Shown here: in pieces, positions 11,221 through 32,755 of the stretch
Numbering within the stretch: the first letter of the stretch is position 1
Layout: each line of letters starts with the position of its first letter
Assembly (NCBI GenBank): GCA_020249865.1
Contig: JADCEV010000030.1
Span: 1-54,839, forward strand
Length of the DNA stretch: 54,839 bases
Reading direction: 5' to 3'
From: Roseomonas sp.
GTDB lineage: Bacteria > Pseudomonadota > Alphaproteobacteria > Acetobacterales > Acetobacteraceae
Program-made: the position numbers and the translations under genes
The notes under the pieces: generated by a model
The model's input: the letters and a program-made list of their open reading frames with translations, nothing else
What the model was told of the DNA's origin: nothing
The model's database searches: none

Positions 11221-14196
11221 ATGCAGGGCCTGCCGCAGATCATCAGCCTGGTGCCGCAGACCGGTCTGCAATTCATTGACATCCGGTTCAATCTGGACCG
11301 CCTGCCGCGCGCGCCGCGTTCCTTCTGGGAACAGCCGCTGCCCCCCGGTGCTGAACCGGCGAGCGGCGAGTCGGTTAATCTGCGGCGCCTCACGGAAAAC
11401 GGCGAAGGCGCGCTGCTGGACCCGATCAGTGGCCGCAGCCCGCCAGATGAGGAAATCTATCAGATCGGTCGCGGCCAGGCTTTGGAATTCATCCTGGGGC
11501 GCTGGTTGCCGCTGCCCTATTTCCGCGTGGCTGCGGTGGGTGCCTCGGGCCAGGAAGTTTATGACAAGGGGCCGACCAATTGGGCGCGGCTGCGCATCAC
11601 CGCGCTTTCCGCACCTGATGAGGAAGGCCATACGCATCACGCGGTGCTGGCCTTCGATACGGCGTTGCGCGCGCGTGAAGAAGGCCGCCCCTATACCGCG
11701 ATTTCGCCAGCCGATAGCGAACGCGCCGGCGAATTCACCTTTGTGTCAGACCGGGAACAGACAAGCTGGTTCATGAATGAACCCTGGCTGATCCAATGGC
11801 TGGAAGAAGTCTTGCAGGAAATGCGCTTGGCCAGTGGCCGGCGCCCGCGCCCCGAGGATGAACAACGCGCCTGCGAACATTGGGCGCGCTATATCACGCT
11901 GCTGGAATTGCTGACCGAAGCGCGCATTCTACCGCGCGTGAAGCTGGTGGATGTAGTGTCCAACAGCAAATCCTATGAACCGATCAATGTTGATCTGGTG
12001 CTGGATATCGGCAATGCGCGCACCTGCGGCATTCTGGTGGAAGATGAACGCGACAGCAGGCTCAATCTGAACAATAGTTATCCTTTGAAGCTGCGGGATT
12101 TGAGTGCGCCGGAATTGGGTTATGCCTTTCCCTTCGAAAGCCGCGTGGAGTTTGCGCGCGCGAGTTTCGGCAAGGATGCGCTGAGCCGCCGTTCCGGGCG
12201 TGGCAATGCCTTTCAATGGCTGAGCCCGGTGCGCATCGGCCCGGAGGCAGTGCGGCTTTCCGCCGCCGCGCGCGGCAATGAAGGCGCGACAGGGCTTTCA
12301 TCGCCCAAGCGCTATTTGTGGGATGAAAGGGCCACAACGCAGGTCTGGCGCTTCAATGGCATGGCCGCTGATGGCGTGACGACCGAACCGCCCGTCAGTG
12401 GCAGCTTCATGGCCTGGGTGACAGAAGAAGGCGAAGTGCTGCGCGCCAAGCCGCGGGGCCGAGGTGGTGCGCCGCGCCAACCCGCCGTGCGTGCGCGCTT
12501 CAGCCGTTCATCGCTGATGAGCTTCCTGCTCGCGGAAATCCTGTTGCAGGCACTGTCACAAATCAATTCGGTTGAAACGCGCTATGCGCGGAGCTTCCCG
12601 GATGTGCCGCGACGGCTGCGGCGGATTTTGCTGACCATGCCGCCGGCCACGGCATTGGCGGAACAGCGGATTTTCCGCCATCGCGCCGAAGCGGCAGTGC
12701 GCCTGGCTTGGGATATGATGGGCTGGGGCAATGCGGCACCTGGCGCCGCCGCGCCTCCGCCGGAACCGCGCATCATCGCCAATTTGGATGAGGCGACGGC
12801 GACGCAGCTTGTGTTTCTTTATACGGAAGCAAGCCAGCGCTTACGGGGCGATCCCGCTAGTTTCTTCGCACTGACCGGGCGCGCGCGCGAAGGCTATGGC
12901 AAGGCGCCATCGCTGCGCGTGGCGAGCATTGATATTGGTGGCGGCACCACGGATTTGATGATCTGCACCTATTCCGCCGAAGCCGGGCAGGAAATTGAAC
13001 CGCATCAGAATTTCCGCGAAGGCTTCCGCATTGCGGGTGATGAGGTGTTGCAGGAAGTAATCCAAAGCATCGTCCTGCCGCAGCTTGAAGAAAGCCTGCG
13101 TGCGGCCGGGGCGCGCGACCCCAAGGCGTTGCTGCGTGAGGTGCTGGGCGGAGATCGCGGGGCGCAAAGCGAATTGGAACGGCATTTGCGCCGGCAATTC
13201 GTGACCCAAGTGCTGGAACCGACCGGGCTTGCGATCCTGCATGGCTACGAAAAAATAGACGAACGCGCGTCCGGCGAATTTCTCCGTGAGAGACTGGCGT
13301 CCATCCTGCATGGGCGCGATGTGGCCGCGCCCTTGCGCTATTTTGAACAACAGGCGGCGCGCGCCGGGGCGGCGGGTTTCCAATTGCTGGAAGCGGAAAT
13401 GGCGGCAGCCGCGGGCAGTGTGGATGCGATTGTGCAGGCAGCACTTGGCCAGGTGATCGCTGATCTCTGCGAAGTGGTCTATGCCTTTGATTGCGATTGG
13501 CTGCTGCTGTCTGGCCGGCCATCCAGGCTGCGCGCGATATTTGATATGGTGCTGGCCAAGATGCCGGTGCCGCCGCATCGCATTGTGGGGATGCATCGCT
13601 ACCGCGCCGGAAGCTGGTATCCGTTCCGTGATTCCGCCGGGCGCGTGGATGATCCCAAAACCACGGCGGCGGTCGGTGCCATGCTCTGCGCCGTGGCTGA
13701 AGGGCGTTTGGAGAGCTTCCTGATGCGCACAAGCCGGCTTGCGATGCGCTCCACCGCCAAATACCTCGGCCGGATGGAGATTTCGGGGCAAATCCTTCGG
13801 CAGAACGTGCTGCTGCAAGACCCGGATGCGGCGCTGTCCAAGGCGCCGGGTGCTTCGCAAGATGTGAAATTCTCCATGGAATTCCGCGCACCAGTGTTTC
13901 TTGGCTTTCGCCAATTGGATCTGGAACGCTGGACCGCGAGCCGGCTTTACATTCTGGAATATGCCAATCCTGATAACGTGCCGCGGCTGAAACTGCCACT
14001 CAAGCTTGCCATCCAGCGCGCGGAAATAGACCCCGAAAGCGCGGACGCGGAGGAATTGCGGGAGGATTTCACCATAGACGAAATCCTGGATGCCGAGGGC
14101 GATCCGCAGCATCGCGGCATTGTACGACTGCGCCTGCAAACCGAACGCAGCGAGGCCGGCTATTGGCGCGATACCGGCGCGCTTTCGGTGCCGTGA
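11221..14196 (+). CDS. srfB: SrfB family protein, actin/Hsp70-like ATPase fold
   Basis: A 991-residue protein matching the family named after the Salmonella SsrB-regulated factor SrfB. Motifs of the actin/Hsp70 nucleotide-binding fold are visible: a phosphate-1 loop LDIGNARTCG (D262-G270), a phosphate-2 loop SIDIGGGTTDLM (D571-D578), and an adenosine-type motif LLLSGRPSRL (761-770). The two phosphate loops are about 300 residues apart, so there is a large insertion. The N-terminal 250 residues and C-terminal 150 are outside the ATPase core and not recognised. No signal peptide or membrane helix is seen, so it is probably cytoplasmic. It is the first gene of a seven-gene operon with gaps of 26 bases or less. 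The family's biochemical role is not established. Confidence 0.88.
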   Translation: MQGLPQIISLVPQTGLQFIDIRFNLDRLPRAPRSFWEQPLPPGAEPASGESVNLRRLTENGEGALLDPISGRSPPDEEIYQIGRGQALEFILGRWLPLPYFRVAAVGASGQEVYDKGPTNWARLRITALSAPDEEGHTHHAVLAFDTALRAREEGRPYTAISPADSERAGEFTFVSDREQTSWFMNEPWLIQWLEEVLQEMRLASGRRPRPEDEQRACEHWARYITLLELLTEARILPRVKLVDVVSNSKSYEPINVDLVLDIGNARTCGILVEDERDSRLNLNNSYPLKLRDLSAPELGYAFPFESRVEFARASFGKDALSRRSGRGNAFQWLSPVRIGPEAVRLSAAARGNEGATGLSSPKRYLWDERATTQVWRFNGMAADGVTTEPPVSGSFMAWVTEEGEVLRAKPRGRGGAPRQPAVRARFSRSSLMSFLLAEILLQALSQINSVETRYARSFPDVPRRLRRILLTMPPATALAEQRIFRHRAEAAVRLAWDMMGWGNAAPGAAAPPPEPRIIANLDEATATQLVFLYTEASQRLRGDPASFFALTGRAREGYGKAPSLRVASIDIGGGTTDLMICTYSAEAGQEIEPHQNFREGFRIAGDEVLQEVIQSIVLPQLEESLRAAGARDPKALLREVLGGDRGAQSELERHLRRQFVTQVLEPTGLAILHGYEKIDERASGEFLRERLASILHGRDVAAPLRYFEQQAARAGAAGFQLLEAEMAAAAGSVDAIVQAALGQVIADLCEVVYAFDCDWLLLSGRPSRLRAIFDMVLAKMPVPPHRIVGMHRYRAGSWYPFRDSAGRVDDPKTTAAVGAMLCAVAEGRLESFLMRTSRLAMRSTAKYLGRMEISGQILRQNVLLQDPDAALSKAPGASQDVKFSMEFRAPVFLGFRQLDLERWTASRLYILEYANPDNVPRLKLPLKLAIQRAEIDPESADAEELREDFTIDEILDAEGDPQHRGIVRLRLQTERSEAGYWRDTGALSVP

Positions 14197-14206
14197 GGAT
14201 CAGGCA

Positions 14207-16837
14207 ATGACAACACCGAATGCCGAAAACGAGGCCCTGGCGCAAAGCTGCGATGCGGTGGCGGATGCCGCGCATGGGGCCATTGAATGGATCGCCCAGG
14301 CCGGCGATGTGGTGCGCGAAGAAGGCCCTGCCTTGGCGCGTGATTTCCGCCGTGAAGGCCTGCGCGCACGCAAGCTTGCCAATGCCGCGCGCAGGCCGAT
14401 GTGCGTTTCCGTCTTTGGCCCAAGCCAACAGGGGAAAAGCTATCTGATCGCCTCCCTGGCGCGGAAGGAAGGCAAGCCCACCACGATCCGCTTCGGGGAA
14501 GAACTCCGCGGCTTCAACCGCGATATCAACCCCGATGGCGGCAAGGAATCAACCGGCCTTGTTACGCGCTTCACGACGCGCCCGGTGACCGGCCTGCCGG
14601 GCATGCCTGTGGTCTGCCGCATGCTGTCCGAAACGGACATCGTGAAAATCATGGCCAATGCCTTCATGGAGGATTTCGACCGTGACACGGTTGTGCCGCT
14701 TGAAAGCGCCGTAATTGAAGCGAGCATTGCTAAAGCGCGCGCGAAGGCCGCACCGGCGGCGTTGGGTCGGCTGAATGAAGATGATATCTATGATCTGTTC
14801 GAGTATTTCGAACGCTATTTCCTGAATCACCCGACGCATCTGGCGCTGAAGCCAGGTGCCTGGCGGGAAATTGAAAGCCTGGCGCCGCGTCTTGCCATTG
14901 CCGATCGGGTAGAGCTTTACGGGCTGCTTTGGAACACTACGCCAACCATGACGGCAACGGCGCTGAAATTGATTCAAGCTCTGGCGCAGCTCGATTTTCC
15001 GGAAGAAGCCTGCTGTCCCATGCTGGCGATTGAGCCCAAGGCGCAGAGCATCATTGATGTTGAGACCATGTCGCATCTCGGCAAGGGCGATGGCGATCCT
15101 GTGCCAGTAGCGACCCGCGCTGGTCGCCGCGCAGAATTGCCGCGCGCGGTGCTGACGGCGGTGGTGGCCGAATTGCAGTTGCAACTTGAAGACAAGCCCT
15201 TCGATTTCTTTGACTATACCGATCTGCTCGATTTTCCTGGTGCGCGCGGACGCGAGAAATACAATGCCGCAAAGGCCGAGGAAGTGGCGCAGAGCGATCT
15301 TTTCATGCTGCTAAGGCGTGGCAAGGTTGCCTATCTTTATCAGCGTTATCTGGCGGAACAGGAACTGACTTCCATGTTGCTCTGCCTGAAGCACAGCAAT
15401 CAGGAAGTGCGCACCGTGCCCGCCATGGTGCGGAACTGGATTGATGGCACGCATGGCGCCACGCCAGAGGCACGGAAGGGCCAGGATGTCGCCTTGTTTC
15501 TGGTGCTCACTATGTTCGACATGGAATTTGAGATCAAAGGCGGCGCCGAAGACAATGTGGAACGCTGGTCCACCAGGTTGAAGACGACGATTTTCGAATT
15601 CCTGGGTCTTGGCCATGATTGGCCATCGGAATGGGTGCCGGGCCAGCCTTTCAATAATACGTTTTGGCTGCGAAACCCTGAAGTGCTGAACAAGGGGCTA
15701 TTGGATTATGACGCCAATGGGCGCGAGGCGAGCTTCCGCGATCCGGCGCGGGTAGCGCAATTGAAAGCGAATTTCCTTGCCAATCCGGATGTGCAAAAGC
15801 ATTTCGCCGATCCCGAACGCGCCTGGGAAGCGGGCATGGCGTTGAATGATGGCGGCATTGGCTATCTTTCCGAAAAGCTCCGCCCGGTCTGCAATCCCGC
15901 GCTCAAGCGCCGTCAGGTGCAGGGACAATTGGGTGATCTTGCCAAGCGCATGGCAGGAAGGCTGGAAGGCTATCATGTCTCCGGCGATCTGGACGCCGAA
16001 TTGGCCAAGCGTCGGGCGGAAGCGCGGCTGGTCGGGCGGCAACTACTCGCTTGCGCGGAAGCTCAGGCTTTTGGGTTGTTGCTGCGCGAATTGCAGGTGC
16101 AGGGCGAAACCCTGGCCGAGCTGTTCCGCCGCCAGCAATTGGCCGCGGTCGAGACCCCGTCTGCCGTAACCGCGCCAGTCGGGCGCAAGACCACGGCGCG
16201 GGAATTGCGTAGCGAATTTGAAGCACTGTTTGAAGATGATCCCGCGCCCGCTGCCCCGGTTGAAGAAGCGGAAGAAGGCCCGCGCGATCAGGCTGATCTT
16301 TTTGCGGAGGCTGCGGTGGCGGAATGGTTGCAGAACATGCACCGCTTTGCCGCGCGCAATGACAGCCCTGAATTGTTCCGCATGGACCGCGAAGCCATTG
16401 CGACATTGGTTGCGCAGCTTGCTGCCGCCGCACGTCGCCTGAAGCTGCGCGAAAACATCGCCACGCGCATGCGGACCGAAGCGGCCTATAATGAATCCAT
16501 GGCCAATCGGCTGCTGAAACCGGTGATGATTGCCGAACGCGCGATCAATGATTTCGTCACCTGGATGGGTTTTGACAGGATGCCGATTGAAGCCCGCCCC
16601 AAGGCCGGGCGTGAAGGGCGCAGTATTTTCATTCGCCCGCCAGCGCCTGCGGATGACATGCCGCAGCTTTCCCAAACGCCCATCGCCTATGATGCTGCGT
16701 TCTATGTCGATTGGGCGGTCGCCTTTGTGCGCCTAGTGGAAGACAATGTGCGCGGGGCGGGCGGTGCGATGGTGGATGAAAAATCCAATGCCCGGCTTGG
16801 CAGCTTGCTGAGTCGCCTGCGCAAGGCAGCCGCCTGA
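14207..16837 (+). CDS. srfC: SrfC family protein, P-loop NTPase
   Basis: An 876-residue protein. A Walker A motif GPSQQGKS lies at 71-78 after a helical N-terminus. A switch-type DFPG motif lies at 342-345, followed by GREKYNAAKAEEVAQSD, as in dynamin-like or septin-like GTPases. The remainder is largely helical with an acidic segment near 685-705. No membrane helix is seen. The SrfC family is always described together with SrfB; nucleotide preference is unproven. The start is the ATG at 14207, ten bases after the SrfB stop with AGGAT upstream; an earlier in-frame ATG lies inside srfB and is unlikely. Confidence 0.85.
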   Translation: MTTPNAENEALAQSCDAVADAAHGAIEWIAQAGDVVREEGPALARDFRREGLRARKLANAARRPMCVSVFGPSQQGKSYLIASLARKEGKPTTIRFGEELRGFNRDINPDGGKESTGLVTRFTTRPVTGLPGMPVVCRMLSETDIVKIMANAFMEDFDRDTVVPLESAVIEASIAKARAKAAPAALGRLNEDDIYDLFEYFERYFLNHPTHLALKPGAWREIESLAPRLAIADRVELYGLLWNTTPTMTATALKLIQALAQLDFPEEACCPMLAIEPKAQSIIDVETMSHLGKGDGDPVPVATRAGRRAELPRAVLTAVVAELQLQLEDKPFDFFDYTDLLDFPGARGREKYNAAKAEEVAQSDLFMLLRRGKVAYLYQRYLAEQELTSMLLCLKHSNQEVRTVPAMVRNWIDGTHGATPEARKGQDVALFLVLTMFDMEFEIKGGAEDNVERWSTRLKTTIFEFLGLGHDWPSEWVPGQPFNNTFWLRNPEVLNKGLLDYDANGREASFRDPARVAQLKANFLANPDVQKHFADPERAWEAGMALNDGGIGYLSEKLRPVCNPALKRRQVQGQLGDLAKRMAGRLEGYHVSGDLDAELAKRRAEARLVGRQLLACAEAQAFGLLLRELQVQGETLAELFRRQQLAAVETPSAVTAPVGRKTTARELRSEFEALFEDDPAPAAPVEEAEEGPRDQADLFAEAAVAEWLQNMHRFAARNDSPELFRMDREAIATLVAQLAAAARRLKLRENIATRMRTEAAYNESMANRLLKPVMIAERAINDFVTWMGFDRMPIEARPKAGREGRSIFIRPPAPADDMPQLSQTPIAYDAAFYVDWAVAFVRLVEDNVRGAGGAMVDEKSNARLGSLLSRLRKAAA

Positions 16838-16863
16838 GACATGAAGCACAAAGGCCGCACCCC

Positions 16864-17883
16864 ATGATGCTGCGTGTTGAAAATGATCGACGCTTTTCGT
16901 TGGGCCATGCGCGTATCACGCTTGAAGGCGTGCAGGCGCCGACCGATGGCGGATTTCGTATTGTTCGCGAAGGCTATGCTGCGGCCAATCTGGGCCGGCG
17001 CGGCTGGCAGGTGCAGGAAGAAAAACTAGTCCCGGTCGAAATCCGACAGGAAGGCCGCGATACTATCCTGGTGATTGGGCCAAGGCTGACGCGGCATCTG
17101 GAACCGGGCCCCTTGGTGTTTTTGCTGCCGGCTGTTGGTTTGGAAGCAAGCCTTTTCTGGCCTGATGATATTGATGTGTTCGATGGCGACCTGCCGCCGG
17201 AAACGGTGATGCCGCGCGAACCAGAGGTAGCGCCAGCGCCAGCGCCGATTGCTCCCGCGCCTCCGGCGCAAGCGCCCTCACCCGCGCCACCGCCGCCGCG
17301 CGAGGAGATTGCGGCACCTGCAATGCAGGAAGGTGCCTCTCGCACGCCCTTGTTTGCTGGTATCGGCTTGCTGTTGCTGGTGGCGGTTGGTGGCGCTGCC
17401 TGGTGGTTCACCGGTTCCTCCCCCGCACCATCACCGGCACCCGTCGCAACACCGGCACCACCAGCACCGCCACCAGCACCAGTCACCGCGGAACGCCCCT
17501 GGCTGGAACGCAGCGATGGAATGAACCTGCGAGATCTGGTGCAATCCGCCCCCGATGTCGCTGCCATTCATGCTGCCGCGCTCAGGCGCCAGGCCGCCGC
17601 GCGGTATGATGATGCGTTGGTGCTGTTCGAAGAAGCAGGCGAACGCGGCCATGCGCCAGCACTGACAGCCGTGGCGCGGCTTTATGACCCGATTGGGTTT
17701 GTCGCCGGGCGTCCCTTCCGCGCGCCTGATCCGCGCGCCGCAGCGCGCTATTACCGCGATGCGGTGCAGAAGGGTGATGCGGCGGCAGCAGCGCCGCGGG
17801 CTGCGCTGAAGACCTGGTTGGAAGAACAGGCACGCGCAGGAAATGGGACGGCAGAAACCGCGCTGAAGGAATTCTGGCCATGA
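16864..17883 (+). CDS. Single-pass membrane protein with Pro-rich linkers and Sel1-like C-terminus
   Basis: A 339-residue protein I cannot assign to a named family. The N-terminal domain (1-115) is beta-rich and soluble, with no signal peptide. A Pro/Ala-rich linker follows (about 120-155), then one membrane helix (about 161-183, FAGIGLLLLVAVGGAAWWF), a second Pro/Ala linker, and a C-terminal domain (about 205-335) with Sel1/TPR-like helical repeats. The expected topology is N-in, C-out, which would join the cytoplasmic SrfB/SrfC side to the periplasm. It lies 26 bases after srfC, and its TGA overlaps the next ATG. Confidence 0.75.
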   Translation: MMLRVENDRRFSLGHARITLEGVQAPTDGGFRIVREGYAAANLGRRGWQVQEEKLVPVEIRQEGRDTILVIGPRLTRHLEPGPLVFLLPAVGLEASLFWPDDIDVFDGDLPPETVMPREPEVAPAPAPIAPAPPAQAPSPAPPPPREEIAAPAMQEGASRTPLFAGIGLLLLVAVGGAAWWFTGSSPAPSPAPVATPAPPAPPPAPVTAERPWLERSDGMNLRDLVQSAPDVAAIHAAALRRQAAARYDDALVLFEEAGERGHAPALTAVARLYDPIGFVAGRPFRAPDPRAAARYYRDAVQKGDAAAAAPRAALKTWLEEQARAGNGTAETALKEFWP

Positions 17884-19829
17884 TGGTGCGTCGCGCGCTT
17901 TGGGCTCTTGCACTGGGTTTATTCTGCGCCTTGCCGGTTGCGGATATCAGCGCGCAACAGCCGGTGCGGCAGCCGCTGCTGATGGAAGGGCGCGCAACGC
18001 TATTCCAACGCGTGATCCTGCGACCCGGTGCACGCCTTGCCGAACGCCCGGATGCGAATGCCCCTGCGCAGCCAACGCCGGGTTTTGGTATTTTCTATGT
18101 CTACGCGCGCCAGGGCAGCGGTGCGGATGCCTGGCTTGAAATTGGCGCCGCGCAGGATGGTCGCACGCAAGGTTGGGTGCCGGCAGACCGCACGATTGAT
18201 TGGAAGCAGACCATGGTGCTTGCTTTCAACAACCCAGCCGGCCGCGAACGGGCGATGTTCTTCCGCGATGCCGAAACTCCGCGCGCGCTTTGGCTGAATA
18301 CGCGCGGTGGCGCGGCGGAAGCCACACGGCTGCGCGAAGCGGCCCGCGCCAATGCCGAAGGGCCGGTGATTGCGCTGGAGCCTGAGAATTTTATCGACAT
18401 TACAAGGCAATTCTATCTGCTGCCCATCATCTCGGCCCAGCGCGTGGAAAATGAGGCGGCGCAGGAAGCGCGCTTGCTGGAGGTGATTTCCGCCCCCGCC
18501 CAGGCTGCGCCGCCGCCGCCTGCTGATCCCGATGCACTGCGCAATTATCGCGGCGCGGTAGTTTTTGTAGTGGATACCACCATCAGCATGGGTCCCTATA
18601 TTGACCGCACGCGTGAAGCGCTGAAGCGCGTGGTGGATCGCATTCGCGACACGGCGGTGCGCGATAATTTCCGCTTCGGCATGGTGGCCTTCCGCGATCA
18701 TATGGGCGGCAATCCCAGGCTTGAATATGTCACGCGTATGTTCTCTCTGCCTGATCTGGCCGAGGCTTCGGATGCGATCCTGCCGCGCTTGTCTCAATTG
18801 GCAGAAGCCCGCGAAAGCAATGAAGGCTTTGATGAGGATTCCCTCGCCGGCATCAAGCTCGCCTTGGATGAGGTGCCGTGGCAGCAATATGGCGGGCGCT
18901 TTGTCATCCTAGTGACCGATGCCGGCGCGCGCGATGCCAAGGACCCTCGTAGTCAGACGCAAATGGGCCCGGAAGAAATGCGCCAATTTGCGCAATCCGA
19001 GGCAAAGCAGGTCGCGATTTACGCCATCCATCTGAAAACACCGGAAGGCCGCAACAATCATGCGCGCGCCGAGAGGCAATACCGTGAACTCACGCGCTTT
19101 GGCGCGGCGGGAGATCTCTATTACCCAATCAATGAAGGCAATATGGGCCAATTCGGCCAGACCGTTGATGCGCTGACCGATGCGCTGCTCGCGCAAGTTG
19201 CCGCTGCCGTCGGGCGACCCATCGCCGGTATCAGGGCGCCGCAAAGCGCGGCTGAACGGCGTATCGCCGAGCAGGCGGAAATTGTCGGCACCGCCATGCG
19301 GCTTTCCCATCTCGGGCGCGAAAGGCAGCAGACCGCGCCCGATGTTGTGCGAAGCTTTGTGCTGGATCAGGAATTGAACCCGGCCGATCCGCGCCCCGAA
19401 AGGCGCCCCCTGGATGTGCGTGTGCTGCTCACGCGCAATCAGCTTTCCGATTTGGCGAATACGTTACGCAGTATCATCCAAGCTCAGGCGGCCGCGCGCC
19501 TTTCGCCCGAGACATTCTTCGAACGCGTGCGCGCTGCCGCTGCTGCCACAGCCCGCGACCCACGCCGCATGGCGGAATTCCAACGCCTAGGCGGTGCCTT
19601 TGGCGAGTTCCTGCAGGACCTGCCCTATCAAAGCCAGATCATGGAATTCACGCAGGAAGAATGGAACAGCATGGGCGCCGGGCGGCGCACTGAAATCGTC
19701 AATGCGCTGGAAGCGAAGCTGCGCCTTTATGAGGAATTCAACCGCCAGCCATCGCTTTGGGTGAGTTTCGATGGCGGGCGCAATCCCGGTGAGGCGATGT
19801 ATCCTGTGCCGCTGGATGCGCTGCCCTGA
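17880..19829 (+). CDS. Exported VWA-domain protein
   Basis: A 649-residue protein. A signal peptide ends near ADISA (25). Residues about 35-110 look like an SH3-type domain (ending WLEIGAAQDGRTQGWVPADR). A von Willebrand A domain (about 222-440) has the metal site D232-T-T-I-S236, a later FRDH segment, and VILVTDAGARD. The C-terminal 200 residues are helical with no recognised family. VWA domains bind protein partners through a divalent metal, so this is likely a periplasmic scaffold of the Srf system. The start at 17880 overlaps the previous stop (ATGA). A second ATG at 17883 is equally possible. Confidence 0.85.
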   Translation: MMVRRALWALALGLFCALPVADISAQQPVRQPLLMEGRATLFQRVILRPGARLAERPDANAPAQPTPGFGIFYVYARQGSGADAWLEIGAAQDGRTQGWVPADRTIDWKQTMVLAFNNPAGRERAMFFRDAETPRALWLNTRGGAAEATRLREAARANAEGPVIALEPENFIDITRQFYLLPIISAQRVENEAAQEARLLEVISAPAQAAPPPPADPDALRNYRGAVVFVVDTTISMGPYIDRTREALKRVVDRIRDTAVRDNFRFGMVAFRDHMGGNPRLEYVTRMFSLPDLAEASDAILPRLSQLAEARESNEGFDEDSLAGIKLALDEVPWQQYGGRFVILVTDAGARDAKDPRSQTQMGPEEMRQFAQSEAKQVAIYAIHLKTPEGRNNHARAERQYRELTRFGAAGDLYYPINEGNMGQFGQTVDALTDALLAQVAAAVGRPIAGIRAPQSAAERRIAEQAEIVGTAMRLSHLGRERQQTAPDVVRSFVLDQELNPADPRPERRPLDVRVLLTRNQLSDLANTLRSIIQAQAAARLSPETFFERVRAAAAATARDPRRMAEFQRLGGAFGEFLQDLPYQSQIMEFTQEEWNSMGAGRRTEIVNALEAKLRLYEEFNRQPSLWVSFDGGRNPGEAMYPVPLDALP

Positions 19830-19837
19830 GGGCGTGC

Positions 19838-20593
19838 ATGAACCGGTCCGCACCAACCCTGTTGCTGCAAGATGTGATCATTCGCCATCAGGCACCAAGC
19901 GGCGCGCCAGGCTTTGAACTCACCATCGAGGAATTTGCCATCGCACGAGGCGAAGCCGTTGCACTGATTGGCCCATCCGGGTCGGGCAAATCTACCCTGC
20001 TTGATTTGCTGGCCTTGGCGCGGCGCCCGGCGGCTGCCGCGCAATTTCTCCTGACACCGCGCGATGGCAAGGCAATAGACCTTGCCGCGCTGTGGCGCGC
20101 CCGCGACGAAAGCCGCCTGACCGCCATTCGTGCCGCGCATTTCGGCTATATCCTGCAAACAGGTGGGCTGCTGCCGTTTCTTTCCGTCCGGCGCAATATC
20201 GCTCTCAGCCAGGCTGTGCTTGGCCGGCCTGATCCCGCGCATATCGAAGCCTTGGCGGCGCGGCTTGAGATTGCTTCCTTGCTGGACCGTATGCCTGCCT
20301 CGCTTTCTGTTGGGCAAAGACAGCGTGTCGCGATTGCGCGCGCCTTGGCGCATCGGCCTGAAATCCTCCTGGCAGATGAACCAACCGCGAGTGTTCACCC
20401 TGCCCTGGCCGATACGGTGATGGCGCTGCTGCTGGAACAGGCGCGTGAACAGGATACCGCGCTGATCCTGGCCACACATGATCCGGATCGCGCGGCGCGC
20501 CATGGTTTTGCGCTGCTGCCAATCCGCACGGAAGCGAGCCAAGGCACAGGGCGTTCCTGGCTTGGCCGCGCAACCACAGGCGCGCCGGCGTGA
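19838..20593 (+). CDS. LolD/MacB-like ABC transporter ATP-binding protein
   Basis: A 251-residue protein with Walker A GPSGSGKST, Q-loop ILQTGGLLPFLSVRRNI, signature LSVGQRQRVAIARAL, Walker B ILLADEPT and switch histidine in ATHDPD. The order and the Q-loop context match the LolD/FtsE/MacB group. Two departures: the signature is LSVGQ rather than LSGGE/Q, and the D-loop reads ASVHP where SALD or NLD is usual. ATP-binding residues are intact. It pairs with the FtsX-like permease that follows (GTGA overlap). GAGGG precedes the ATG at 19838. The likely role is driving a periplasmic conformational cycle for the operon's exported proteins; this is inferred from context. Confidence 0.9.
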   Translation: MNRSAPTLLLQDVIIRHQAPSGAPGFELTIEEFAIARGEAVALIGPSGSGKSTLLDLLALARRPAAAAQFLLTPRDGKAIDLAALWRARDESRLTAIRAAHFGYILQTGGLLPFLSVRRNIALSQAVLGRPDPAHIEALAARLEIASLLDRMPASLSVGQRQRVAIARALAHRPEILLADEPTASVHPALADTVMALLLEQAREQDTALILATHDPDRAARHGFALLPIRTEASQGTGRSWLGRATTGAPA

Positions 20594-21813
20594 GCAGAAG
20601 CCCCTCTCACACCGGGCTGCTGTGCGGGCTTTCGCTGCGTGATCTTTTGTATGAACGCACGCTCGCACTTTGTTCGCTGATTGGTCTGGCGGCGGTGCTG
20701 GCACCGCTGATTGTGCTGTTTGGCTTGAAGCAGGGCGTGATTGATGGGCTGCGGGCGGAGCTGATTGATAATCCGCGCAGCCGCATGATTGTGAACGCGG
20801 CCAATCGCAATTTCGATGCGGCGTTCCTCACACGCCTTGCCGCGCGGCCTGATATCGCTTTTGTGATTCCACGCATCCGCAGCCTGAATACCGAAGCGCG
20901 GTTCGAAAACCCGGCGCGCCCGGGCACGGTGCTGCGTGCGGAATTGCTCGCCACCGCCGCGGGTGATCCCCTGCTGCATGGCCTGCCCAGCATTGTACCT
21001 ACCCAGATTATCCCCAGCGCTTCCTTCGCCGCACGGCTCGATCTGCAACCGGGCATGCAGGTGACGTTACGCGCCATTCGCGGTGATGCCGGCGCGCGTG
21101 AGGTATTGAATCTCACCGTAACTGTCGCTGCCATCGCACCGCCAAGCGCCTTTGGGCGAGACGGCGTCTTTGTGGACCTCAAGACACTGTTGTTGGTGGA
21201 TGGTTTCACCGATGGCACGCTGGCCCCCAGCACAAGCCCCACCGATATCGCGGATGATCCGACGCGGATTTTCGCCGGCTTTCGCGCCCATGCGCGGCGG
21301 CTGGAAGATGTCACGCGCATTGACCATGATCTTCGGCGCGAGGGCGTGGATGTTGAAACGCTCGCGGAACAGGTTGCAAGCCTGCTCAGCCTTGATCGTA
21401 GTCTCACGCTGCTATTTGCCTTGCTCGCGGGCTTGGGCGGCGTTGGGTATCTCGTGTCACTTGGGGTTGGGCTTTATGCCAATGTGGAACGCAAGCAACG
21501 TGATCTCTCGTTGCTGCGGCTGATCGGGCTCTCGCGCCGCGATCTGGTAGTGTTTCCACTGATCCAGGCGCTGATCATCGCCGCTGCCGGCGCTGCCTTG
21601 GCAAGCCTGCTCGCACTGACCGTGGCAGGGTTGGTGAATCGCCTGCCTTTGGGTGGCGCCAATCCCGCCGGTGGGCACGCCATTTGCGCCATTGCGCCGG
21701 AACATCTTCTGCTGGCCTTGCTGGTCAGTCTTTTTGGCGCGGCGCTGTCAGCCGCTTTTGCCGGGTATCGCGCCGCCCGGATCGAACCTGCAGAGGGGCT
21801 TCGCGATGCGTAA
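20590..21813 (+). CDS. FtsX/LolC-like ABC transporter permease
   Basis: A 407-residue protein with the four-helix layout of type VII ABC permeases. One helix lies near 27-50, followed by a large periplasmic domain (about 55-265), then three C-terminal helices (about 270-295, 315-345, 365-390) with the FtsX-domain coupling segment ERKQRDLSLLRLIGLSRRDL between the second and third. It ends in the usual ARIEPAEGLRDA. The GTG start overlaps the upstream TGA. A single permease gene implies a homodimer, as in MacB, rather than a LolC/LolE heterodimer. Confidence 0.9.
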   Translation: MSRSPSHTGLLCGLSLRDLLYERTLALCSLIGLAAVLAPLIVLFGLKQGVIDGLRAELIDNPRSRMIVNAANRNFDAAFLTRLAARPDIAFVIPRIRSLNTEARFENPARPGTVLRAELLATAAGDPLLHGLPSIVPTQIIPSASFAARLDLQPGMQVTLRAIRGDAGAREVLNLTVTVAAIAPPSAFGRDGVFVDLKTLLLVDGFTDGTLAPSTSPTDIADDPTRIFAGFRAHARRLEDVTRIDHDLRREGVDVETLAEQVASLLSLDRSLTLLFALLAGLGGVGYLVSLGVGLYANVERKQRDLSLLRLIGLSRRDLVVFPLIQALIIAAAGAALASLLALTVAGLVNRLPLGGANPAGGHAICAIAPEHLLLALLVSLFGAALSAAFAGYRAARIEPAEGLRDA

Positions 21814-23485
21814 GGTATTCATCGCCTTGATCGCCATGGCGGCAAGCTTGCCTCAGGCAGCGCGGGCGCAGGAAAGATGGGCGGTGGAATTCTGGAATCC
21901 AAAACCTCAACCCGATGATCTGATCCTGCCCATGCCTTGCGGTGGTGCCATGGCGTTTCGCCCAGTGCCCACACCGCTTGGCCAAGGGCTGCTCGCGGAT
22001 CGGCCGGCCATGCTGGGTCAGGCCGATGCCGCGACGAATTACAGTGAATTCCTGCGCCAAAGCTTCATCGCCGGCCCGTTTATCGGCGCCGATGCCGCAG
22101 CACCGCCGCGCTACTATATCGGCAAATATGAAGTAACGCGCGACCAATACAGCGCCTTCACCAGCGAAACCTGCCCGACACCTGCAACCGCCGGACGCCT
22201 GCCACAAGCGGATATCGCTTGGCATGAGGCGATTGGCTTCACGCTGCGTTATTCCGCCTGGCTTGCGCGCAATGCGCGTGATGCCTTGCCGATGCGCGAT
22301 GATGCGCGCGCCTTTGTCCGCCTGCCCACCGAAGATGAATGGGAATTCGCCGCGCGCGGCGGGGCTGCGGTATCAGAAGCGGATTTCAGCGCGCGTGTAT
22401 TTCCAATGCCGGAAGGCATGCAGCGCCATGTCTGGTTTCAGGGCACAAGATCCTCGGGCGGGCGGGTGCGGCCCATCGGCATGCTAGAACCCAATCCACT
22501 TGGGATATTCGACATTCTCGGTAATGTCGCGGAATGGGTTCTGGAACCCTATCGGCTCAATCGCGTTGGCCGGCCGCATGGTCAGGCCGGCGGCATGGTG
22601 GCGCGCGGCGGGGATTTCCTGACACCGGAAGATCAAATCCGCTCAAGCCTGCGCGTTGAATTGCCGCCGCTTGATCGCAATGGTGAAGCGCTTCGCCTGC
22701 GCAGCCTTGGCTTTCGCCCCGTGCTTGCCTTGGTTGCGACCAGCAGCGACCAGCGCCCGGCACAATTGCGCGCCGCGTTTGAAGCTGAGGCTCAATCACG
22801 CGGCAGCGCCAGTGAAGACCCGGCGCGGCTGTTGGAAGTGCTCAAGAATGACACGCCAGACCCAGCGCTGCGCCAGGGAATTGATCGTGTGGGCGCCGCG
22901 CTGCGCACCGCGCAGCGTGAACGCAATGATCAGGAAATGCAGGCGATCCAAAGCCAAATCGCCGCCGCGGCGCAAATTGGCCGACAGATCCTGCTCGCAC
23001 AGGGTTTTGGCGAATTGCTTGGCGCCTTTGCCCGTGTACAGGCGGAAACCGTGCAGGCGCAACGCACACTCGCGGAAGACCAGGGCCGCATCGCCGCCGC
23101 CACGCAGGCGGAGGTTCAGGCGGCGCTGCGTCGGCAACAGGAACGCACGCAGCAAATTACCAATACCATGGCGCGCATTGAAGCGGCACTGCGCAGCCAG
23201 GCGGAAGGCCAACCTGCGCGTACTCAGGAATTGGCCGCAAGCTATCTGCGGACTGTGCTGTCGGTTGGGCGCAGCGCGGATCGGCTGCGCATTGCGGATG
23301 CCGGCAATGTGGTGCAGCAGGAATTGCAGGGGCAGAATGTGCAGTATTTGCCGGAGCTCGCGCGTATTGCGGCGCGGCACATGGTCGCTGTCAGCAATGG
23401 CAATCCGCCCAGCCGCGAACAGGCGCTGGCCGATCTTACGGCAGTGTTGCAGCCCCCGGCCTCGCCACCGCCTTCGCGGCGCTAG
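21806..23485 (+). CDS. Exported FGE-sulfatase (SUMF1-fold) protein with coiled-coil tail
   Basis: A 559-residue protein. A signal peptide ends at about ARA-Q (22). The FGE-sulfatase fold covers about 95-310: YYIGKYEVTRDQYSAF, VRLPTEDEWEFAARGG, GIFDILGNVAEWV, and GMVARGGDF ending in SLGFRPVL. In true formylglycine-generating enzymes a pair of cysteines sits in the segment before GFRPV; here that segment has none, so it is probably a non-catalytic binding module. Residues about 320-500 are long heptad-rich helices with many Gln and Ala. The start is the ATG at 21806 (AGGGGC upstream), overlapping the permease stop by 8 bases. It is the last gene of the Srf operon. Confidence 0.87.
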   Translation: MRKVFIALIAMAASLPQAARAQERWAVEFWNPKPQPDDLILPMPCGGAMAFRPVPTPLGQGLLADRPAMLGQADAATNYSEFLRQSFIAGPFIGADAAAPPRYYIGKYEVTRDQYSAFTSETCPTPATAGRLPQADIAWHEAIGFTLRYSAWLARNARDALPMRDDARAFVRLPTEDEWEFAARGGAAVSEADFSARVFPMPEGMQRHVWFQGTRSSGGRVRPIGMLEPNPLGIFDILGNVAEWVLEPYRLNRVGRPHGQAGGMVARGGDFLTPEDQIRSSLRVELPPLDRNGEALRLRSLGFRPVLALVATSSDQRPAQLRAAFEAEAQSRGSASEDPARLLEVLKNDTPDPALRQGIDRVGAALRTAQRERNDQEMQAIQSQIAAAAQIGRQILLAQGFGELLGAFARVQAETVQAQRTLAEDQGRIAAATQAEVQAALRRQQERTQQITNTMARIEAALRSQAEGQPARTQELAASYLRTVLSVGRSADRLRIADAGNVVQQELQGQNVQYLPELARIAARHMVAVSNGNPPSREQALADLTAVLQPPASPPPSRR

Positions 23486-23689: not shown

Positions 23690-24535
23690 ATGCAGGAAGC
23701 GCCGCGTACCATCGAAACTTCTGGCTTAAGCCAGACCAATGCCACGCAAGGCCCCCTGCTCCGCGCCCGCGCCGTCATCCTCGGCGAAAGGCTCGATCAT
23801 CGCGGCCTTGGCCCCGGCGGCACTGCCATGGCGGACCCCGTACCCATCGCCGCCCCCTCCCCCATCTGCGCCTTTGCCTTCCGCTGGGGTGCGGTGGTGG
23901 TCTTCGGCGCCGATCCTGTCGAGGAAGCCGCATTACTGGCAGCGCTTGCCCCGCGCATCACCAACCCCGCCGATAGCCCCGCTGAGGAAACCGCGCTGAT
24001 AGCGCTCGGCGCCGAACGTGACGGCGTTGATGCCGAAGGCGTGATCCAGCTTTGCGATGCGGCGCCGGAACGCCTCGCCGTGGTCGCGGATGCCTTGGCG
24101 AAAAGCGCTGCCCTCGCCCAGCAGGAAGCCCGCATTGCCGAGGCTTTGGACCGGCTGGAACCCGCCGTCGCAGACCTGCGCGCGGCAGGCCGGCTGCGCT
24201 TTTCCTCTCGCGCCTTGCATCGGCAGATTGGCCATGCGCTTTCCGCCCATAGCCGCAACCTGGCGCGGGTAGAGGCCGCAGATAAGCCCGAAGTGCTTTG
24301 GGATCATCCGGAACTGGAACGACTCCATGCCCGGCTTTCGGATGAATATGAGCTCCGCGAAAGGGGCGCCGCGCTGGAACGCAAGCTCGGCTGGATCGGC
24401 AATACCATCCAGACGCTGCTGTCCCTGATCCAGGCGCGGCGCGCACTTGGGCTGGAAGCCGCCGTGGTGGCGCTGGTTGGGATCGAGGTCGCCTTCACGC
24501 TGTATGAACACGTGATCCGTCCACTTTGGCCCTGA
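23690..24535 (+). CDS. RMND1/Sif2 family (DUF155) protein
   Basis: A 281-residue protein. The N-terminal region begins the conserved RMD1 domain with LRARAVILGERLDHRGL and continues with FRWGAVVVFGAD. The middle is helical, and near the C-terminus a predicted membrane segment (about 255-276, GLEAAVVALVGIEVAFTLYEHV) anchors the protein. The WDHPELERLHARLSDEYELRER stretch is typical of the family. Mitochondrial RMND1 supports translation of mitochondrial proteins; bacterial members are uncharacterised. The start at 23690 keeps the conserved LGERLD motif. It may have its own promoter, given the 204-base gap upstream. Confidence 0.88.
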   Translation: MQEAPRTIETSGLSQTNATQGPLLRARAVILGERLDHRGLGPGGTAMADPVPIAAPSPICAFAFRWGAVVVFGADPVEEAALLAALAPRITNPADSPAEETALIALGAERDGVDAEGVIQLCDAAPERLAVVADALAKSAALAQQEARIAEALDRLEPAVADLRAAGRLRFSSRALHRQIGHALSAHSRNLARVEAADKPEVLWDHPELERLHARLSDEYELRERGAALERKLGWIGNTIQTLLSLIQARRALGLEAAVVALVGIEVAFTLYEHVIRPLWP

Positions 24536-29523: not shown

Positions 29524-30169
29524 AGGGTGCGCCCGGCGCGGCTTGCGCAAAAACACAGATATCAGCAACGCTGCGGGCCAAGCCCGGCGCATCGCCCAGC
29601 GCTTCCGTCACCGCTGGCAGGATGATAGCTTTTTCATCCGGCGTCAGGCGCCGCGTCAACGTCATGTGAAAGCGCCATTCGGCGAAGACGTAAGGGTAGC
29701 CCCAGGCTGCCAGGTATTCGCGCTGACGCGGGCTGAGAGTTTCCGGCTTGCGGCGCGCAATCTCAGCCTCGGTCGGGGGCGCGCGATGCGCATCAAGCGC
29801 AGTAACAGCGCCATCGGCGACGGCTTGCAAGGCAGGGCAGGGTGTGGCCTCGCGCAGTGCCAGAAAGCCATCAAGATCGGTAATGTGCAGCGGCGGCAGG
29901 GCGAAGGCCGCAGTGCGTGCTGCGAAATCCCGCGCGGCTTCCAAGGCTGCCGGCACATCACCTTGCAGGCGAAACGGCGGCTTCAGCGTGGCGTGAAAGC
30001 CATAACCACGCGCATCGGCGGTGATTTCTGCGATATCAATGCCAGCAACGGTTTTTTGCGGCAGCGCTGCCCCAGTGACCGCATCGCGCCCCAACCAGGC
30101 TGAGGCGCATTGATGCAAGGGATCATGCGCCTCAGGTGCGTAGTAAAGCGCAATGCGGAAGGGCGTCAC
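29489..30169 (-). CDS. Phosphonate-operon 2H phosphoesterase (DUF1045)
   Basis: A 226-residue protein of the DUF1045 family found in C-P lyase operons. Both catalytic H-x-T motifs of the 2H phosphoesterase fold are present: HATLKPP in the N-terminal half and HMTLTRR in the C-terminal half. Members likely act on cyclic phosphates; processing of ribose 1,2-cyclic phosphate 5-phosphate (a PhnP-like step) is a reasonable guess, because no phnP is seen here. The GTG start at 30169 overlaps the phnM stop (GTGA), placing it last in the phnG-M operon. An upstream ATG at 30193 would extend into phnM. Confidence 0.85.
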   Translation of the reverse strand: MTPFRIALYYAPEAHDPLHQCASAWLGRDAVTGAALPQKTVAGIDIAEITADARGYGFHATLKPPFRLQGDVPAALEAARDFAARTAAFALPPLHITDLDGFLALREATPCPALQAVADGAVTALDAHRAPPTEAEIARRKPETLSPRQREYLAAWGYPYVFAEWRFHMTLTRRLTPDEKAIILPAVTEALGDAPGLARSVADICVFAQAAPGAPFTILERLTLRG

Positions 30170-31308
30170 GCAATCCGTTCCCCCGCGCGCCAAACCCCGC
30201 GCACCAGCGGCATATCGCCAAGGCTGCGCACGCGAACCAGATCCGCCTTAAGGCCAGGCGCGAGCCGCCCACGATCAGCAAGCCTTGCCATACGCGCAGG
30301 CGTATCCGTCACCATGGCAATCGCTTGCGGTAGGGTGATCCCCCCCGCCTCCACCGCGCGCCAGGCGGCTTCCAGCATGGAAGCGGGCACGTAGTCTGAC
30401 GCGAAAGCATGTGCCAAGCCTTCGCGCACCAGATCAGCCGCGGCGACATTGCCGGAATGGCTGCCGCCCCGCACAATATTGGGCGCGCCGGCAATCACCT
30501 CAACGCGCAAATCCCGCGCGGCGCGGGCAGCTTCCATGGTGACGGGAAATTCCGAAATCGTGATGCCATCAGCAAGGTTGCGCGCCATTTCGGTGGGCGT
30601 GTCGTCGTCATGAGACGCAAGCGGAAGGTTGCGATGGCGAATCCGGTCCAGCAGCCAAGCGCGCTGCTTTTCCCGCAGCTCCGCACGCTGCGCAAGCAAG
30701 CTGTCAATCCGCGCCTGCACCTGCGCATCACTCCACTGCGTCTGGCGCTTGCGCATGGCGGCGTAGCGCGGAATGTCCCGGTATTGTCCAACGCCCGGCG
30801 AGTGATCCATCAGGCTGACCATCACCACGCGCGGATGATCCGCGACCGGGTCAAGCGCCGGCGGCATGTCACGCGCGGGCAATTCGCAGCGCAGATGCAG
30901 GAAATGCTCGCCCTTCAGCGCGCCAAGATCAGCAAGTTCATCCAGATCACGCACACCATCCAGAAAAGTCTGGCCGCGTTCCGTATCAAAGCCAAGATCA
31001 CCCAGGCAAAGCGCATCCAGAATGGTGGTGACGCCAGCCGCGACACATTGCGCATCATGCGCAATCATGGCGGAACGCGACGGCCACCGCGCATTGGCGC
31101 GCGGCAGCACCTGGCGTTCCAGATTATCGGTATGCACATCAACAATGCCGGGGATCAGATGATCCCCTTCCAGATCAAGCGCGCCTGGTGCCTGGCTGCG
31201 GCCAGATTGGATATCGGCAATCAGCCCATCGCGCAGCACCAGCGTGCCATCCAGCACCGCATCGGGCAGGACAACCCTGGCATTGGTCAGAATAATCTCA
31301 GCGCTCAT
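30166..31308 (-). CDS. phnM: Alpha-D-ribose 1-methylphosphonate 5-triphosphate diphosphatase
   Basis: A 380-residue amidohydrolase-fold protein. Metal-site segments visible are DVHTDNLERQ near the N-terminus, SLMDHSPGVGQY, SHDDDTPTE, and the ASDYVPASML region with the late catalytic aspartate. It releases pyrophosphate from the triphosphate made by PhnGHIL to give the substrate of PhnJ. It overlaps phnL by 4 bases upstream and the phosphoesterase gene by 4 bases downstream. A second, more distant PhnM-type gene lies at 36540-37679. Confidence 0.95.
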   Translation of the reverse strand: MSAEIILTNARVVLPDAVLDGTLVLRDGLIADIQSGRSQAPGALDLEGDHLIPGIVDVHTDNLERQVLPRANARWPSRSAMIAHDAQCVAAGVTTILDALCLGDLGFDTERGQTFLDGVRDLDELADLGALKGEHFLHLRCELPARDMPPALDPVADHPRVVMVSLMDHSPGVGQYRDIPRYAAMRKRQTQWSDAQVQARIDSLLAQRAELREKQRAWLLDRIRHRNLPLASHDDDTPTEMARNLADGITISEFPVTMEAARAARDLRVEVIAGAPNIVRGGSHSGNVAAADLVREGLAHAFASDYVPASMLEAAWRAVEAGGITLPQAIAMVTDTPARMARLADRGRLAPGLKADLVRVRSLGDMPLVRGVWRAGERIA

Positions 31309-32003
31309 GCGGCATCCTGCATGGGTTCAACGGTGAAAACACGATCCGCCACGGCTTCGCGCACTTCGGCATCGTGGAAAATACCGACAATGGCAGTGCC
31401 GGCCTGTTTCGCCTCATGGATCAGGCCGATCACGATAGCGCGATTGGCGGCATCAAGGCTGGCGGTGGGTTCATCCAGCAGCAGCACCGGATAGCGCGGC
31501 CCAAACCCGCGCGCGACGTTGACGCGCTGCTGTTCGCCCCCCGAAAACGTCGCCGGCGGCAGGCCGTGCAAGCGTTCTGGCAGGTTCAAGCGATCAAGCA
31601 GTGCGGAGGCACGGGAAAGCGCATCACTTGGCCTCATGCCGCGCGCGACCATGGGTTCGGCGACAATATCGCGCGTGCTGACGCGCGGGATGACACGCAG
31701 AAATTGGGATACATAGCCAATACTCTCCCGCCGCGCTTCGATCACCGCGCGCGGATCAGCGCTGGCAAGGTCAAGCTCTGCCCCGCGATGCGCAAGCCAT
31801 ATCCGCCCCACGCCCGCGCCGTAATTGCCGTAAAGGCAGCGCATGAGCGTGGATTTACCCGCGCCTGATGGACCGGAAAGCGCGACACATTCGCCGGCCC
31901 GCACCGCAAGATCAACGCCAGCAAGCACAGGAATGCGCGTACCACCCTGCAGATGCAGCGTGAAGCTTTTGCCCAAGCCTTCAGTACGCAGAAGAATGCT
32001 CAT
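31305..32003 (-). CDS. phnL: C-P lyase ABC-type ATPase PhnL
   Basis: A 232-residue protein with Walker A GPSGAGKST, signature FSGGEQQRVNVARGF, Walker B VLLLDEPTASLD and switch GIFHD. The ending and the YGNYGAGVGRIW segment are typical of PhnL. PhnL works with PhnG, PhnH and PhnI to displace adenine of ATP by a phosphonate. It is not a transporter, despite its ABC fold. It has 4-base overlaps with phnK and phnM. Confidence 0.95.
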   Translation of the reverse strand: MSILLRTEGLGKSFTLHLQGGTRIPVLAGVDLAVRAGECVALSGPSGAGKSTLMRCLYGNYGAGVGRIWLAHRGAELDLASADPRAVIEARRESIGYVSQFLRVIPRVSTRDIVAEPMVARGMRPSDALSRASALLDRLNLPERLHGLPPATFSGGEQQRVNVARGFGPRYPVLLLDEPTASLDAANRAIVIGLIHEAKQAGTAIVGIFHDAEVREAVADRVFTVEPMQDAA

Positions 32004-32755
32004 GCCGCCAGCACCGATGATACCAGAAGCTGCGTATAAGGATGCTGCGGATCATCCAGCACACGATCCGTGAGGCCCTGTTCCACCACCTGCCCGCGCC
32101 GCATCACCAAAATCCGATCTGCCAGCAAGCGCGCGGCGGCGATATCATGCGTCACGATCAGCACGGAAAGCCCCAATTCGCGCACCAGCGCGCGGATCAA
32201 ATCCAAGAGTCGCGCCTGGACCGAAACATCCAAGCCACCGGTTGGTTCATCCATGAACACCAGCTTCGGGCGCGTGACCAGGGTGCGTGCGATTTGCAGG
32301 CGCTGCTGCATGCCGCCTGAAAAATGCCGGGGCAGATCATCAATCCGCGCCGCATCAATTTCCACACGTTGCAGCCAAGCCTTAGCCTCATCGCGGATAT
32401 TGCCGTAATGCCGCGCGCCAAGTGCCATCAGCCTTTCGCCGACATTCCCACCGGCAGAAACACCCATACGCAGCCCATCGCGTGGGTTCTGGTGCACAAA
32501 GCCCCAATCGCTTCGCATCAAGCGGCGCTGTTCCGCTTCCGTCATGCCAAGCACATCACGGCCAAGGTAATGCACGGCGCCGGCATCAGGCACCATTTGG
32601 CCGGCCAGCACACGCAGCAAGGTGGTCTTGCCCGAACCGCTTTCACCGACAATGGCGACAACTTCTCCAGCCGTGACATCAAGTGCCACATCATCCAGCG
32701 CGGCGATGGCACCGAATTTCAAGTGTAGCCCTTGGGCCTTCAGGAGCAAATTCAT
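32000..32755 (-). CDS. phnK: C-P lyase ABC-type ATPase PhnK
   Basis: A 251-residue protein with Walker A GESGSGKTT, signature FSGGMQQRLQIARTL, Walker B LVFMDEPTGGLDVSVQ and switch IVTHD. It resembles oligopeptide-type ABC ATPases but belongs to PhnK by context and by the DWGFVHQNPRDGLRM Q-loop. PhnK binds the PhnGHIJ core next to PhnJ and is needed for phosphonate use in vivo. It has 4-base overlaps on both sides. Confidence 0.95.
   Translation of the reverse strand: MNLLLKAQGLHLKFGAIAALDDVALDVTAGEVVAIVGESGSGKTTLLRVLAGQMVPDAGAVHYLGRDVLGMTEAEQRRLMRSDWGFVHQNPRDGLRMGVSAGGNVGERLMALGARHYGNIRDEAKAWLQRVEIDAARIDDLPRHFSGGMQQRLQIARTLVTRPKLVFMDEPTGGLDVSVQARLLDLIRALVRELGLSVLIVTHDIAAARLLADRILVMRRGQVVEQGLTDRVLDDPQHPYTQLLVSSVLAA

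Follow-up and report, generated by a model that had tools for sequence, protein, structure and literature searches.

An srfB–srfC operon of Roseomonas that may have rewired the type VI secretion threonine-phosphorylation sensor to work without a kinase

The window analysed here, a stretch of 54,839 nucleotides from Roseomonas sp. (contig JADCEV010000030.1, contig C79 of the 3.65 Mb assembly GCA_020249865.1; genome G000, completeness 100), carries a seven-gene operon headed by srfB and srfC. On balance, we read this operon as the sensor of the threonine-phosphorylation pathway of type VI secretion systems (T6SS), rewired to work without a kinase; the route of the signal to SrfB, SrfC and SrfA, and the final role, are graded separately below. 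All seven genes lie on the + strand, with overlaps at three junctions and 26 bases as the widest gap, and coordinates and Pfam matches agree with the first-pass annotation, which had described a co-directional SrfB–SrfC operon whose genes overlap or stand no more than 26 bases apart:

11221-14196, + strand: SrfB, 991 residues; PF07520, E 2.1e-288; predicted cytoplasmic.
14207-16837, + strand: SrfC, 876 residues; PF10139, E 4.7e-232; predicted cytoplasmic.
16864-17883, + strand: bitopic linker, 339 residues; without a Pfam family.
17880-19829, + strand: VWA protein, 649 residues; PF25106, E 3.8e-7, and PF00092, E 7.9e-6; probably exported.
19838-20593, + strand: TagT-like ATP-binding cassette (ABC) ATPase, 251 residues; PF00005, E 1.4e-25; LolD superfamily.
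20590-21813, + strand: TagS-like FtsX-family permease, 407 residues; PF02687, E 2.7e-9.
21803-23485, + strand: TagR-like protein with the formylglycine-generating enzyme (FGE) fold, 560 residues; PF03781, E 1.7e-27; probably exported, probably not catalytic.

The longest open reading frame (ORF) for SrfC begins at 14090, yet the start at 14207 is common to close relatives. Promoter-like sites numbered 2 in the window (mean 2.9 in shuffles) and terminator-like sites 23 (mean 15.3).

The last four genes very probably encode the envelope-sensing part of the T6SS threonine-phosphorylation pathway, as judged from gene order and identity. On Tistrella mobilis pTM1, the annotation lists first tssH, tagH, tssJ, tssK, icmH, tssM, tagF, a PP2C phosphatase and a Ser/Thr kinase, and after the kinase vWA, ABC, FtsX and SUMF1/FGE genes, a hypothetical gene and vgrG; kinase and VWA are separate genes in this version of the pathway. 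Six further genomes carry TagH, TssK, TssM, TagF and PppA together with an ORF of 1017-1189 residues, followed by ABC, FtsX and FGE genes, and the VWA protein corresponds to the C-terminal part of that ORF, where it is fused to the kinase. In BLASTP comparisons with these seven T6SS loci, the window VWA protein was 37-38% identical over 632-683 residues to its counterparts, in Tistrella a separate gene and in the other six loci the fused PpkA ORFs (E 4e-123 to 3e-129), the ABC ATPase was 50-54% identical to its own counterparts (versus 32% and 38% to two further ABC ATPases encoded in the window), the permease 35-38% identical over about 400 residues, and the FGE protein 33-38% identical (two of the FGE proteins being cut by the stretch end). 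The window thus has the VWA half of PpkA, TagT, TagS and TagR in the order of the pathway known from the Pseudomonas aeruginosa H1-T6SS and from Tistrella, with a LolD-like ATPase, an FtsX permease and an FGE protein adjoining a PpkA-type VWA region. A D-x-T-x-S motif resembling a metal ion-dependent adhesion site was kept in most of 21 aligned VWA proteins. Catalytic FGE enzymes have copper-site cysteines after the RGG motif. No cysteine follows the RGG motif of the window protein (RGGDFLTPEDQIRSSLR), and none lay within 22 residues of any of the 53 motifs caught, although in several rows the RGG caught was another one and 5 of the 58 rows yielded no motif; the window protein is therefore probably not catalytic. 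The window protein has its fold in common with FGE-fold structural proteins such as GldK/PorK, but its similarity to GldK is weak (39.6 of 350 bits).

The same four genes had been taken in the first-pass annotation for an ABC pair driving a VWA–FGE complex in the manner of LolCDE or MacB. Such a transporter or mechanotransducer of an envelope component, with SrfB and SrfC as extra drive, would agree with the membership of the ATPase and permease in the LolD/FtsX superfamily and with the presence of system parts on both sides of the membrane. NCBIfam scores, however, were far below cut-off (LolC, 29.4 of 473 bits; LolD, 113.4 of 307.75 bits), and by gene order and identity the nearest relatives are TagT, TagS and TagR genes, a closer match than the earlier proposal offers. 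In P. aeruginosa, TagQ is an outer-membrane lipoprotein, TagR is periplasmic, and TagS and TagT form an ABC pair (PMC11881912, PMC6657622, PMC11323562); outer-membrane damage is answered through TagQRST–PpkA (PMC11881912), and PMC6657622 describes the tag genes as a module for signal transmission. We consider a transporter unlikely: since the block corresponds to the PpkA VWA region, TagT, TagS and TagR, sensing is likelier than movement of cargo.

No kinase accompanied this sensor beside srfB. A kinase model was built from five fused kinase–VWA ORFs and the Tistrella kinase; it matched the sixth fused ORF at E 1e-146 and matched at none of 62 SrfB loci (stretches from chosen genomes, named plasmid regions and two loci of VWA relatives, mapped with custom profiles). 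PppA, TagF, TagH, TssK and TssM (phmmer, E 1e-4) were found at all seven T6SS loci and nowhere else among the stretches, and a set of Ser/Thr kinase, PP2C phosphatase and FHA substrate was not found at the Srf loci, which instead have SrfB, SrfC and SrfA. The sheath protein TssC/VipB had no match in the window genome, and VipB was absent from 7 of the 13 genomes of a phylum sample that carry both SrfB and the VWA protein; the sensor block therefore needs no T6SS. In a family sample VipB was distributed independently of SrfB (9/18 genomes with SrfB versus 49/102 without, p 1).

In place of the kinase stands the linker, whose parts can be laid out as follows:

Linker residues ~1-108, followed by a Pro-rich stretch, + strand: LinkN, predicted cytosolic from hydropathy and flanking charges.
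~17350-17406, + strand: linker transmembrane segment, predicted from hydropathy.
~17479-17880, + strand: LinkC, predicted periplasmic, Sel1-like; PDB profile match to Sel1 proteins, E 1e-8.

Exactly one strongly hydrophobic window was present in 37 of 39 linker ORFs and two in the other 2, the strongest lying mid-protein, from which we infer a bitopic protein with cytosolic LinkN and periplasmic LinkC. With the Tistrella T6SS kinase as query, linker proteins were matched over the transmembrane segment and the C-terminal part. Conversely, a LinkC profile found the C-terminal end of that kinase among 11,042 ORFs (E 1.4e-14), and a LinkN profile gave no match in it. These matches argue strongly for a domain swap, in which the linker would share the periplasmic half of the kinase and carry a cytosolic half that is not a kinase. 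The shared LinkC gives the clearest clue to how the rewiring may have come about, and a periplasmic domain common to the linker and one T6SS kinase supports the linker's proposed part as a coupling element. Two other relationships of the linker were discarded: the linker is not SrfA, since profile comparison gave 8.7% and no similarity, and an apparent match to VWA2 was an artefact of the Pro-rich and transmembrane stretch.

The mapped loci show how far the arrangement is conserved. SrfC adjoined SrfB at all 62, and the VWA gene was present at 44, each with the linker (44/44), some of these stretches ending before the last operon genes. Exceptions among uncut VWA-bearing loci were L100, with no ABC match, L124, with no permease or FGE match, and genome G525 (L053/L127), with no FGE match despite an uncut stretch. 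L124 lies on a contig labelled Nitrosovibrio and encodes a VWA protein 73% identical to that of the window; our guess is that this contig is perhaps mis-binned. At another locus (L078, genome G027), the operon has two VWA genes in tandem. SrfB was found in 35/35 genomes of the window's genus, 18/120 of the family sample and 26/397 of the phylum sample (above the model cut-off; 27 at E 0.001). The VWA model matched 21 of the 397 phylum genomes: 13 with SrfB (Fisher p 2e-12, related genomes not being independent), 12 of them with both genes side by side on one contig, 6 within T6SS clusters whose kinase is fused, and 2 with neither adjoining. VWA, ABC, FtsX and FGE genes were all present in 20 of the 21. 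Among plasmid records, the window VWA protein and permease each matched 125, with identical counts per organism name (114 being Klebsiella), and SrfB matched 142; the one record examined, Klebsiella plasmid CP061360.1, carries the operon in the order SrfB, SrfC, linker, VWA, ABC, permease, FGE. Half of the 20 named loci of close VWA relatives are labelled Roseomonas. Recurrence of the gene order in Acetobacteraceae, in other alpha- and gammaproteobacteria and on plasmids speaks for a single envelope-spanning system, as the first-pass annotation had held, and the refuting condition named there, a lack of co-occurrence of VWA, ABC and FGE genes with srfB and srfC in other genomes, was not borne out.

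The VWA–ABC–FtsX–FGE block was also seen, with a TagQ-like gene, at two loci with neither SrfB nor a T6SS adjoining (L174, genome G498; L175, genome G166). A TIR-domain ORF lies upstream and a trypsin gene downstream of the block at L174, and an S41 peptidase lies near it at L175; these neighbours are possibly further outputs of the same sensor.

Several observations weigh against a kinase-free rewiring as proposed here. The kinase search was confined to the locus stretches, kinases far from the operon not being searched, and the sole match outside T6SS loci was a Hanks-type kinase ORF in genome G493 (L125), cut by the stretch end, on the opposite strand to a Srf operon and about 9 kb past its FGE gene. 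In the phylum sample VipB was associated with SrfB (18/26 genomes with SrfB versus 85/371 without, p 2e-6), 13 of the 18 genomes with both belonging to a single family (f52). The linker–kinase match involves one kinase; none of the six fused PpkA ORFs has the Sel1-like LinkC domain, Sel1-like repeats are a generic fold to which the LinkC profile also gave weaker matches (E 6e-5 to 4e-3), and the VWA tree leaves the direction of the swap unsettled. Finally, the VWA gene was missing from 18 of the 62 loci (3 of them short or split contigs), so SrfB and SrfC can work without the sensor. Eleven of these are SrfA–SrfB–SrfC with no linker or sensor within the stretch, four are SrfA–SrfB–SrfC–linker (L095, L103, L148, L149), two are short contigs (L085, L096), and one (L067, genome G265) stops at a contig edge, a second contig of that genome (L176) starting the VWA block with the linker at its edge.

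The 11 loci of 62 without linker or sensor would suit a system that modulates surface behaviour, such as swarming, through a change in the envelope, with the Tag block as a secondary input in some lineages. In Salmonella, srfC is under FlhDC control and an srfC mutant swarms poorly and swims normally (PMC4219756), again as such a role would predict. Loci of the window's family with enough sequence nevertheless all carry at least the VWA gene, except L095, and we regard this alternative as improbable.

SrfA, the third srf product, was found elsewhere in the window genome, on contig C81, apart from the operon contig:

C81 3342-5111: SrfA-type protein with a trypsin domain, 589 residues; SrfA model.
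C81 5127-6389: second SrfA-type protein; SrfA model.
C81 6396-7616: third SrfA-type protein; SrfA model.
C81 7704-8414: putative TagQ-like lipoprotein; lipobox by eye, weak glycine-zipper match.
C81 8421-8930: second lipoprotein.

SrfA-type proteins have an N-terminal domain of about 130 residues, a hydrophobic stretch and a variable C-terminal part, trypsin-like in some and VWA in one relative. At E 1e-8, SrfA occurred in 18/120 genomes of the family sample, and these coincide with the 18 that carry SrfB (p 9e-22, not corrected for relatedness, some rows of the SrfA model having been taken from the genomes counted), and at E 0.001 in 34/35 genomes of the genus. The two genes lie on different contigs in G000 and G143 and about 25 kb apart in G070. 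Because SrfA is confined to SrfB-bearing family genomes even where the genes are unlinked, the case is good for placing the C81 locus and the operon in one system. A candidate for the TagQ component is thus present, though outside the operon; a TagQ-like lipoprotein gene follows the FGE gene at many Srf loci, as it does in four T6SS clusters. The TagQ model is unspecific at low scores, matching 37/120 family genomes at 1e-10, at least 19 of them without SrfB. In the window genome, the TGA flagged in the TagQ match is the stop codon of that gene. A view limited to the operon would miss the five likely system parts at C81.

The cytoplasmic pair retains nucleotide-binding motifs. In 33 aligned SrfB proteins, the positions of DxGNxxxCG, D(I/V)GGGT(T/S)D and GRP(S/A) were invariant or nearly so; these correspond to the phosphate-1, phosphate-2 and adenosine motifs of actin/Hsp70/FtsA (ASKHA) ATPases. 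By motif only, this suggests that SrfB is an ATPase of the actin/Hsp70 fold; its best PDB profile matches were to FtsA at a non-significant E 0.37. SrfC is a P-loop protein, and most of 38 aligned members have the motifs GxSQxGKS (G1), DLLDFPG (G3) and a G4-like TKFD/TMFD (TKFD in many members, TMFD in the window); SrfC is most likely a GTPase. The conserved motifs therefore suggest one ATPase and one GTPase. The G-motifs of SrfC hinted at a bacterial dynamin, a link that was not supported: against 27 dynamin-type ORFs the profile comparison gave 24 columns at 4% probability, with better scores for 15 Era-type ORFs (56%) and 25 ABC ATPases (55%), and PDB profile matches to Drp1/GBP had E 0.45-2, the dynamin-type alignment spanning the P-loop only. 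An AlphaFold model of SrfC reached a mean predicted local distance difference test score of 46 and a predicted template modelling score of 0.36, from an alignment of 13 sequences of which 11 were the window protein or at least 90% identical to it. A search for SrfC relatives in viral contigs gave 41 pattern matches, none a relative.

These motifs bear on the possibility that the SrfABC proteins are effectors, a weapon or toxin whose export is controlled by the Tag block. SrfABC of Xenorhabdus, where T6SS control genes lie beside srfABC, is reported to be cytotoxic on co-expression in E. coli (PMC6950479), and export of SrfC has been suggested (PMC3608642). Here, however, SrfB and SrfC keep the motifs of cytosolic NTPases, the operon has no secretion apparatus, no T6SS sheath protein was matched in the window genome, and PADLOC models matched only the ABC ATPase, generically; we think a weapon quite unlikely.

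The window genome shares the SrfA, SrfB and SrfC families with the enterobacterial srfABC of Salmonella and Xenorhabdus, with SrfB (PF07520) adjoining SrfC (PF10139). Unlike the short enterobacterial version, with no linker or sensor nearby, it has the sensor block, and its three SrfA-type genes are on a different contig. In 2013, srf and tag genes were reported to lie together in host-associated Deltaproteobacteria, in which srfB, srfC, tagQ, ppkA and mostly tagR, tagS and tagT form one neighbourhood, and one of which has T6SS machinery genes (PMC3608642). That paper lists a ppkA kinase, in contrast to the 62 Srf loci mapped here. The 655-residue VWA gene of the Srf operon on CP061360.1 is annotated 'serine/threonine protein kinase', and for this reason the 'ppkA' of 2013 may be the VWA gene. 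The operon had been called uncharacterised at first pass, a description that holds for SrfB and SrfC but not for the sensor block, the neighbourhood being already in print (PMC3608642). Among the open-licence PubMed Central papers listed, we found no account of the kinase-free version, of the domain shared by linker and kinase, or of the SrfA architecture.

For a kinase-free rewired sensor, a course of events is suggested by the order of the genes, by their co-occurrence and by what is known to trigger the sensor. Outer-membrane damage would be sensed by TagQ, TagR, TagST and the VWA protein, and the signal handed through the linker to SrfC, the probable GTPase, and SrfB, the putative actin/Hsp70-fold ATPase; that it passes from sensor to SrfB and SrfC is, in our view, somewhat probable. 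SrfC and SrfB would then assemble, or change state, at the membrane and work via the cytosolic domains of bitopic SrfA proteins, whose periplasmic parts, in this genome a trypsin-like protease and two more, would be placed or activated. That SrfA is the output is possible, but less probable than the preceding step. The likely output would be local envelope remodelling, repair or defence, and a role in repair or defence is itself doubtful. More tentatively, an interchangeable sensor of TagQRST and the VWA protein might feed either a T6SS-firing kinase or, via a kinase-like receptor with LinkN in place of the catalytic domain, the GTPase/ASKHA pair as a second alarm branch. The pair would gather at the damage site bitopic SrfA proteins that combine a common cytosolic domain with differing periplasmic tools (trypsin-like protease, VWA and others).

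Elsewhere in the window, a DUF155 gene (RMND1/Sif2 family; 23690-24535) lies downstream of the operon; the mapped loci contain 6 ORFs that match it, none outside the window's genus. On the - strand, 30166-34685 carries PhnI, an amidohydrolase and two ABC ATPases, a combination that probably serves phosphonate degradation, and at 43685-50220 a UvrD-type helicase adjoins a PD-(D/E)XK nuclease gene in an AddAB-like arrangement.

SrfB and SrfC have been labelled virulence factors, their function long unexplained, and a sensor with a known trigger beside them makes that function testable. The TagQRST sensor appears to be portable and not bound to the T6SS, so that tag genes and 'ppkA' labels in genomes would need to be reread.

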